Below are positions 44,427 to 46,274 of a stretch of DNA of 64,000 bases, one piece after another. A program made the translations under genes and the position numbers. This stretch comes from Nitratireductor kimnyeongensis (GTDB lineage Bacteria > Pseudomonadota > Alphaproteobacteria > Rhizobiales > Rhizobiaceae), in NCBI RefSeq assembly GCF_019891395.1, contig NZ_CP078143.1, forward strand, positions 1,154,001-1,218,000, in the 5' to 3' direction. The notes under the pieces are model-generated. The model ran no database searches. It was not told where the DNA came from and worked only from the letters and a program-made list of their open reading frames with translations. Within the stretch, counting starts at the first letter, position 1; the number at the start of each line of letters is the position of its first letter.

Positions 44427-46274
44427 TTACTGAACTCCTGCAATTGCCTTGGCAAAATCGCTCGCCGAGAAAGGCTCCAGATCGTCGACCTGTTCGCCGA
44501 CGCCGATGAAATAGACCGGCAGCTTGTGCTTGGCGGCGATGGAAACGAGGATACCGCCGCGTGCCGTGCCGTCGAGCTTGGTCATAACAAGGCCGTTGAC
44601 GCCCGCAACATTGCGAAAGATTTCGACCTGATTAAGGGCATTCTGTCCGGTGGTGGCATCCACCGTCTGGAGGACAGTGTGCGGCGCATCGGGATCGTGC
44701 TTGCCAAGCACGCGCACGATCTTCTCAAGCTCCGCCATCAGCTCGGCCTTGTTCTGCAACCGGCCGGCGGTGTCGATGATGAGCACATCGGAGCCGGCCT
44801 CCTTCGCCTTTTCATAGGCATCGTAGGCAAGGCCCGCCGCATCCGCGCCCAGTTTTGATGAAACGACCGGTGAGCCAGTGCGCTCGCCCCAGATTTTCAA
44901 TTGCTCGATTGCCGCGGCGCGGAAGGTGTCGCCGGCGCCCAGCGTCACCGACAGCCCACCTTCGGTCAGCTTTGCGGCCAGCTTGCCGATTGTGGTCGTC
45001 TTGCCGGTGCCGTTGACGCCAACAACGAGAATGACATGCGGCTTGTGCGACAGGTCGAGCTCGAGAGGCATGGCGACGGGTGCCAGAACCTTCTCGATTT
45101 CCTCGGCCATGACAGCCTGCACTTCCTCACCTGACACGTCCTTGCCGTAACGGCCCGAAGCCAGTGCATCGGTGACGCGCATGGCGGTCTCAAGACCGAG
45201 ATCGGCGCGGAGAAGAACGTCTTCGAGATCCTGAAGCGTGTCTTCATCCAGCTTGCGCTTGGTGAATACGCCGGCGATGGAATCGCGCAGCTCGCGCGAC
45301 GAACGCGAAAGCCCCTCGCGCAGACGCTGGAACCATGGCTTGCGCGGTTCGGACGCTTGTGGCTCGGGCGCCTTCTCTTCCACGCGCTCGACTGCTTTGG
45401 AGACGGCGATCTTGCCTGCGGCAACGGCTGGCGCAGATTCGGCGACGGGCGTGATGTTGCCAGCGTCGCGTCGCCCCTCATCCTCACCTTCTCCCCGTTC
45501 ACGGGGAGAAGGGGTCGCGGGCGTTGCGTCTGAAACTTCGACCTTCGGTTCCGGGGCTTCGTCGGCCTCGGCCTTTTCCGCAACCTCGATGACGGGTTCC
45601 GCTTCCTTCTCCCCGCCAGCGGGGAGAAGGTGGTCCGAAGGACCGGATGAGGGGCTTGCGTCGTCGGTCGAGGGTGTCGGCGCGGCCTCGACGGCAGGCT
45701 TGATGTCGTCAGCGTCGCGCTGCCCCTCATCCTCACCTTCTCCCCGCTCGCGGGGAGAAGGGGGCGCGGGCGTCGCGTCTGAAATTTCGGCCTTCGGCTC
45801 TGGCTCTGGCTCTGGCTCTGGCTCTGGCTCTGGCTCTGGCTCTGGCTCTGGCTCTGGCTCTGGCTCTGGCTCTGGCTCTGGCTCTGGCTCTGGCTCTGGC
45901 TCTGGCTCTGGCTCTGGCTCTGGCTCTGGCTCTGGCTCTGGCTCTGGCTCTGGCTCTGGCTCTGGCTCTGGCTCTGGCTCTGGCTCTGGCTCTGGCTCTG
46001 GCTCTGGCTCTGGCTCTGGCTCTGGCTCTGGCTCTGGCTCTGGCTCTGGCTCTGGCTCTGGCTCTGGCTCTGGCTCTGGCTCTGGCTCTGGCTCTGGCTC
46101 TGGCTCTGGCTCTGGAACAATTTCACGGGTGGCTTTCTCACCCGTCAAGGCTTCATCTGCCTGCGCAACAGCAGCGGTCTCTGAAGCCTTCGCCTCTTCC
46201 GCCTCGTCAGGCTTGGTTTCCTCAACCTCTTTCTTGCCGAAGGAGAAAACCTTTTTGATAAATCCGAATGCCAT
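44427..46274 (-). CDS. ftsY: Signal recognition particle receptor FtsY with a greatly expanded acidic N-region
   Basis: Membrane SRP receptor that docks ribosome-nascent-chain complexes by GTPase heterodimerisation with Ffh. It has 615 residues. The N-terminus ([18 protein letters not shown]) is basic, followed by an acidic region of about 300 residues that includes (EP)53 (residues 55-160) and segments from palindromic repeats. The NG domain (about residues 315-615) has P-loop [30 protein letters not shown] and [10 protein letters not shown]. Normal rhizobial FtsY is far shorter in the acidic part. The gene lies downstream of mtaB (5 nt) and upstream of ispZ. Confidence 0.96.
45452..45551 (-). 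repeat. Copy 1 of a 100-bp imperfect direct repeat within ftsY, with palindrome
   Basis: This segment matches 45701-45800 at an offset of 249 bp with about 11 mismatches by eye. It contains CCTTCTCCCCGT (45487-45498) and ACGGGGAGAAGG (45501-45512), the core of a rhizobial intergenic palindromic repeat, here read through in frame as [12 protein letters not shown]. Confidence 0.75.
45605..45644 (-). repeat. Palindromic element in ftsY, opposite orientation
   Basis: CCTTCTCCCCGC (45605-45616) and GCGGGGAGAAGG (45619-45630) form a strong hairpin, followed by GGTCC-GAA-GGACC (45632-45644). It is inverted relative to the elements at 45487 and 45736. In frame it gives [15 protein letters not shown]. 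It closely resembles intergenic repeats I know from Mesorhizobium-type genomes. Confidence 0.75.
45701..45800 (-). repeat. Copy 2 of the 100-bp direct repeat within ftsY, with palindrome
   Basis: Second copy, carrying CCTTCTCCCCG (45736-45746) and CGGGGAGAAGG (45751-45761). It encodes [13 protein letters not shown] as in copy 1 and abuts the microsatellite. Confidence 0.75.
45796..46115 (-). repeat. Hexanucleotide microsatellite (GGCTCT, 53 units) encoding (Glu-Pro)53
   Basis: An uninterrupted 320-bp run of GGCTCT (AGAGCC on the coding strand) spans ftsY codons 54-160. No base departs from the unit. As the unit is a multiple of three, unit gain or loss would keep the frame and only alter the length of the Glu-Pro rod. 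Confidence 0.97.

Follow-up and report, generated by a model that had tools for sequence, protein, structure and literature searches.

In Escherichia coli, the A domain of the SRP receptor FtsY has been described as a disordered, acidic N-terminal region that contacts both phospholipids and SecYEG and tethers the NG domain near the membrane and translocon, giving a volume around the translocon in which SRP complexes are sought by NG (PMC9099147). A conserved NG domain behind a hypervariable N-terminal region has also been described for haloarchaeal FtsY, in a survey of protein variability whose available text states that Proteobacteria have no such variable region and that slippage is not the major source of protein variability (PMC9425974). 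The best-known parallel to the FtsY feature that we describe here comes from another protein, TonB, in which a Glu-Pro / Lys-Pro region within a disordered linker has been described as polyproline II rods (PMC10771500). Perfect short units whose number differs between genomes are also found in bacterial in-frame coding microsatellites and VNTRs. Two apparent precedents nearer to ftsY do not hold, as VNTR3239 of M. tuberculosis lies 280 bp downstream of ftsY and not inside it (PMC12817950), and the available part of PMC5403423 gives only a point change in ftsY. In the accessible portions of the mostly open literature on FtsY and in-frame hexanucleotide repeats, a Glu-Pro tract in FtsY was not found.

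A coding microsatellite in ftsY

Within the 64-kb stretch of Nitratireductor kimnyeongensis DNA analyzed here ('the window'), ftsY is an open reading frame of 615 codons on the minus strand (44427..46274), identified by the TIGR00064 equivalog model (316.2 bits, cut-off 260.7) and by Pfam matches to SRP54 and SRP54_N; TIGR00064 is likewise matched by 18 of 18 aligned relatives (E up to 0.001). In bacteria that have been studied well, this targeting GTPase is essential. On the same strand lie mtaB immediately upstream (46280..47563; TIGR01579, 460.5 bits, cut-off 357.05), which served as a synteny marker, and the gene for septation protein A / ispZ (yciB) immediately downstream (43777..44424; NF001323, 311.4 bits against 196). 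Elsewhere on the minus strand of the window, a 6S RNA (28048-28204) and the alphaproteobacterial sRNA BjrC1505 (9757-9900) both score above their Rfam gathering thresholds.

The protein opens with a 15-residue conserved segment (46230..46274, minus strand), partly invariant in an 18-row alignment and present in most of the tract loci whose sequence covers the start, which may contact the membrane. It is followed by a 293-residue acidic linker (residues 21-313; 45336..46214, minus strand), with 99 acidic and 22 basic residues and a net charge of -77, and by the NG domain (residues 314-615; 44430..45335, minus strand) to which the Pfam and TIGR00064 matches refer. In an AlphaFold2 model based on the 18-row alignment, residues 1-310 have a pLDDT of 30-52 per block with one short strand, while the NG part is folded, its ten-residue blocks reaching 67-95; the N-terminal region is acidic and, by this prediction, disordered. 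In these respects it resembles the published description of the E. coli linker, for which a Glu-Pro microsatellite is not described in the available text of PMC9099147.

Embedded in the linker is a perfect GGCTCT microsatellite (45796..46115, listed without strand; coding-strand unit GAGCCA), which Tandem Repeats Finder reports as 53.3 copies of period 6 over 320 bp, with 100% matches, 0% indels and a score of 640, the only period-6 array among four arrays in the window. Translation of its minus-strand codons (45795..46112) gives (Glu-Pro)53 at residues 55-160, as an initial sequence-only reading of this DNA had it, with the unit named there by its plus-strand letters and not as the GAGCCA of the coding strand. 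A (GGCTCT)3 probe of the 4.05-Mb genome returned 51 overlapping matches, all within the ftsY tract, and its reversed control returned none. In a background sample of 380 kb, drawn as 19 stretches from the rest of the contig, the sole perfect microsatellite of at least 18 bp was 18 bp long, and the best tandem-array score was 92, versus 640 for the tract. The array score, the genome probe and the background sample together rule out an origin by chance, and a dispersed genome repeat is ruled out by the hexamer's single place in the genome. The tract is a coding microsatellite, a pure short tandem unit beyond what chance would give.

The TonB-like feature of the window FtsY is this long Glu-Pro repeat of 53 units within a linker; there is no TonB model among its Pfam matches, and so no sign by that search of the TonB C-terminal domain. 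TonB also differs in spanning the periplasm and in carrying Lys-Pro, whereas the tract of the cytosolic FtsY consists of Glu-Pro alone. By likeness to TonB, the tract may form a rigid rod. Polyproline II rises 0.31 nm per residue, at which value the 106 tract residues would reach ~33 nm if fully extended.

The sequence-only reading had suggested that the tract might stall ribosomes and need EF-P, whose gene it placed in the window. The gene is indeed there (an EFP_N domain at 14450-14620, ~31 kb from the tract), but the link to the tract is unsupported: we looked for Pro-Pro inside the window's (Glu-Pro)53 run and found none, and EF-P-dependent stalling at the tract was dropped accordingly. 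A related idea is that ribosomes are held back on the alternating CCA codons during the time in which the FtsY N-terminus finds the membrane. CCA is uncommon in this genome (in a rough 380-kb sample of open reading frames it makes up 423 of 3343 proline codons), and the CCA tRNA of E. coli has been reported as limiting at proline pairs; the tract contains no such pair, however, and the level of that tRNA hardly affected a single-proline reporter, according to the available part of the same source (PMC8129111). Moreover, the tract lies 3-20 residues before NG in some lineages and more than 100 before it in others. We therefore regard a translation-speed element as very improbable.

Palindromic cores beside the tract

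The linker also contains three palindromic cores of the form CCTTCTCCCC-N6-GGGGAGAAGG, listed without strand and lying in two different frames: core 1 at 45736..45761 (residues ~172-180), core 2 at 45605..45630 (residues ~215-224), which differs in frame from the other two, and core 3 at 45487..45512 (residues ~255-263). All six half-sites in the window fall in these three cores, with 0.20 expected. A longer form of the core has 21 hits in the genome at up to 3 mismatches, 12 of them exact and two in ftsY. Rickettsia palindromic elements, as covered in the available part of a review (PMC10969869), are likewise palindromic repeats located in frame inside genes, although those elements are ~150 bp long, unlike the 26-bp core here. 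The palindromic cores are separate from the GAGCCA microsatellite.

Recurrence across family, order and class

An exact (GAGCCA)5 probe, searched on both strands and with the window's own genome counted in each sample, matched 34 of 394 genomes of the family (in 14 of 109 genera), 16 of 397 of the order and 5 of 381 of the class. A reversed-pattern control was matched in 3/394, 2/397 and 0/381 genomes, respectively, and we count these matches against the explanation that we favor below. One locus per genome was then read, covering 30 of the 34 family genomes (all but G131, G169, G206 and G282) together with 15 order and 4 class genomes besides the window's own; second places in genomes with several matches were left out, except in G118 (L232) and G362 (L139). 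The tract lies in ftsY in 29 of 30 family, 12 of 15 order and 2 of 4 class loci, or 43 of 49, and these 43 carry nine family codes (f1, f6, f14, f36, f38, f40, f43, f74 and f213). Every one of them has an NG domain and/or mtaB, and the six other loci have neither. It is this recurrence, in one gene across many families and in an essential targeting GTPase, that sets the tract apart from other bacterial coding VNTRs.

The six loci outside ftsY encode a PAS protein (L125), two TonB proteins (L177 and L188), a zinc-ribbon protein (L187), a Sel1-repeat protein (L204) and a DUF2497 protein (L206), the last of which we take to be PopZ-like. The tract is again read as Glu-Pro in these, so that the two TonB proteins share with FtsY not just the dipeptide but the GAGCCA tract itself.

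The choice of frame bears on whether the encoded residues matter at all. Purely neutral slippage, with the residues unconstrained, would accommodate both the wide range of tract lengths and an NG domain that is conserved regardless of the tract. A GAGCCA repeat contains a stop in no frame, and its other sense frames would encode Ser-Gln or Ala-Arg, yet in 49 of 49 loci the Glu-Pro frame is read from at least one side and none of the five other stop-free frames is used in its place; the irregular cases are N. pacificus, taken up in a later section, and L137, in which the frame on one side of an N run differs from that on the other. Tract-less FtsY linkers are also acidic and rich in Glu and Pro. 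Neutral slippage is weakened by the frame bias, and we consider it improbable.

On a tree of NG domains, tract state must change at least 11 times, compared with a mean of 35.0 when labels are shuffled (the 43 tract rows of this tree and the 43 ftsY loci differ in membership). Well-supported (starred) branches force only one change, and the tree therefore does not fix the number of independent tract origins, which we also count against the explanation favored below. In any case, the GAGCCA tract in ftsY is a recurring and fast-changing feature, not a one-off. It is also at odds with the published statement, in the available text of PMC9425974, of no variable FtsY region in Proteobacteria: compared with the haloarchaeal proteins, the variable region here is alphaproteobacterial and a pure hexamer repeat.

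Unit number varies among close relatives

Complete Glu-Pro counts within Nitratireductor, which shift by one depending on where the start of the run is set, are 53 in the window, 24 in G002, 52 in G003 (N. pacificus), 6 in G004, 7 in G005 and 2 in G008, with 58 in N. indicus, whose NG domain is 95% identical to that of the window. Where a contig end or N cuts the tract, counts are lower bounds: at least 6 in G006, at least 13 in G007 and at least 8 in G009. NG identity to the window is 94-98% across eight Nitratireductor genomes. Between the window and G005, 53 versus 7 units are followed by 450 bp that are 94.9% identical and gapless. The sequence-only reading had named varying unit counts with an intact NG domain as support for its idea, and this is what we find between species (one genome per species); a unit number fixed among relatives, which it had named as contrary evidence, is excluded by counts from 2 to 58. 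The gene was found in 9 of the 10 Nitratireductor genomes searched; the tenth, G001, gave no FtsY match, only one of the Ffh kind at 8.8e-39.

An exception to an orderly frame is N. pacificus (L029 / L132), in which the frame of the start codon reads (Glu-Pro)52 and stops soon after, with NG encoded in another frame. The conflict falls in the palindromic repeat region directly after the tract, and may either be genuine or reflect an error in the draft.

Tandem repeats are concentrated in the linker

Tandem Repeats Finder detected arrays in 41 of 91 FtsY linkers versus 1 of 91 NG domains. Among 68 linkers chosen by similarity, not by tract, arrays occur in 24 (and in 1 of 68 NG domains), compared with 3-12 of 68 in 20 rounds of codon-shuffled controls. 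In 41/41 linkers the best array has a period divisible by three, between 6 and 300 bp. Next to its Glu-Pro tract of 14 units, one FtsY (L129, from G123) has another microsatellite that encodes Asp-Ala, with 16.7 copies of CCGATG. Other FtsY linkers contain tandem duplications that keep the frame, of 300 bp (L038), 270 bp (L154), 147 bp (L046), 105 bp (L070) and 102 bp (L112).

With two linkers that contain N dropped (L010 and L109), linkers with a tract have a median length of 224 residues (109-293, n=17) and those without one a median of 279.5 (149-393, n=72), a comparison in which the tract-less linkers are mostly from Mesorhizobium and the rows are not independent. The assumption in the sequence-only reading that an ordinary FtsY has a short N-terminal region is contradicted by these 72 relatives, and with it we reject a rod added onto a short normal linker. 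That tract-bearing linkers are no longer than tract-less ones also counts against our preferred explanation. Charge per linker residue is -0.18 with a tract and -0.11 without. The number of units correlates with total linker length (rho 0.56) and shows no correlation with the length of the remainder (rho 0.09); the remainder was thus not seen to compensate for the length of the tract. Taken together, the length and charge data indicate that the tract supplies ordinary linker length with more charge.

These data also bear on adaptive length tuning, in which ftsY would be a contingency locus whose unit number differs among cells or strains and whose effect on targeting is used by selection. Six-base steps that preserve the frame, unit numbers that run from 2 to 58 in closely related species and the more negative charge of tract-bearing linkers are all in line with tuning. 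Against it, total linker length stays inside the family's ordinary range, the remaining linker does not change with unit number (rho 0.09), and at least 360 of 394 family genomes have no match to (GAGCCA)5. We consider tuning of this kind unlikely.

Bias toward one hexamer

The bias extends to the DNA level. Among Glu-Pro codon pairs outside the tracts of 91 distinct FtsY linkers, 475 of 1228 are GAGCCG and 85 of 1228 are GAGCCA. Within the 43 ftsY tracts, by our count, 1 of 577 interior units is other than GAGCCA, although 60 of 173 fourfold-degenerate sites of NG differ between the window and G005. A synonymous control probe with one base changed, (GAGCCG)5, matched 2 of 394 family genomes, one locus being ftsY with 16 units (L162) and the other lacking any FtsY feature (L161); the genome-wide probes covered these two of the eight hexamers that can encode Glu-Pro. 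For comparison, CCG is reported in the available part of PMC6821194 as the prevalent proline codon of bacterial low-complexity regions, unlike in the ftsY tracts.

Predicted RNA folding energies for 20 units, in kcal/mol, are -91.3 for GAGCCG, -66.1 for GAACCG, -46.6 for GAGCCC, -36.6 for GAGCCT, -13.5 for GAGCCA, -2.6 for GAACCC and 0 for both GAACCA and GAACCT. The two CCT hexamers, GAGCCT and GAACCT, hold stops in another frame. GAGCCA may be favored as a low-structure, GC-compatible hexamer. However, GAACCA, GAACCT and GAACCC fold less than GAGCCA, and the existence of less structured hexamers among the eight is also counted against our preferred explanation.

Assembly breaks at the tract

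The tract abuts a contig end or a run of N in 12 of 29 family, 7 of 12 order and 0 of 2 class ftsY loci, although masking, and not a gap, may account for some of the N runs. With 19 of 43 loci interrupted there, long reads are required for firm unit numbers, the assembled count of 53 in this isolate included. In G188 (L118), FtsY continues from the Glu-Pro tract into an AAA ATPase that has a hydrophobic stretch, at a locus without mtaB; this is likely a misjoin between two tract-bearing genes, because its congener G118 (L232) has mtaB and the usual FtsY N-terminus. In G073, a genome scored as 100% complete, the best FtsY NG match is no better than 4.4e-33, and a contig (L122) carries mtaB and an FtsY-like N-terminus before breaking off inside the tract; the ftsY of this genome was probably lost to assembly at the tract. 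The near-complete genome G277 has an FtsY NG match no better than 9.9e-37.

It might be argued from the 19 of 43 broken loci, the frame conflict in N. pacificus and the FtsY joined to an unrelated ATPase that assemblers have expanded a short real repeat. A real repeat exceeding read length would itself cause such breaks, however, and unbroken tracts with normal flanks occur on long contigs, including the window's own (3.79 Mb) and those of L129, L180, L182 and L183. The concern that the tract is an expansion made by one assembly is answered by its recurrence in independent genomes, and we give an assembly artefact hardly any credence. As a matter of caution, assemblies do break, misjoin or lose ftsY at the tract.

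A probable slippage-prone tether

We consider it probable that the tract is a true in-frame microsatellite, prone to slippage, in the disordered tether (the A-region linker) of an otherwise normal FtsY, with its frame and composition held by selection and its length free. The purity of the repeat and its six-base steps suggest replication slippage as the mutation process: slippage on GAGCCA would add and remove Glu-Pro units in frame at a pace that point mutations, in blurring the repeat, do not reach, and slippage together with duplication would keep rebuilding the acidic, proline-rich tether. Selection would preserve NG, the frame and a composition rich in acidic residues and proline, but no particular length, and the tether would allow NG to explore the surroundings of the translocon, in line with the account of E. 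coli FtsY given above. The same process may have been repeated in ftsY across Hyphomicrobiales, and occasionally beyond, so that the tract described here would be the extreme of a general habit of FtsY linkers, that of carrying tandem repeats in frame with a unit length between 6 and 300 bp.

The natural series from 2 to 58 units offers a means to probe whether the FtsY tether has an optimal length or charge. More tentatively, and with much less confidence than in slippage and selection as such, the SRP-receptor tether of Hyphomicrobiales may be a fast-evolving quantitative trait, in which a self-renewing (GAGCCA)n, favored for encoding Glu-Pro at low secondary structure in GC-rich DNA, arises repeatedly and its copy number sets both the reach and the charge of the volume searched by NG, such that related bacteria, and perhaps even the cells of a single strain, would differ in co-translational targeting.
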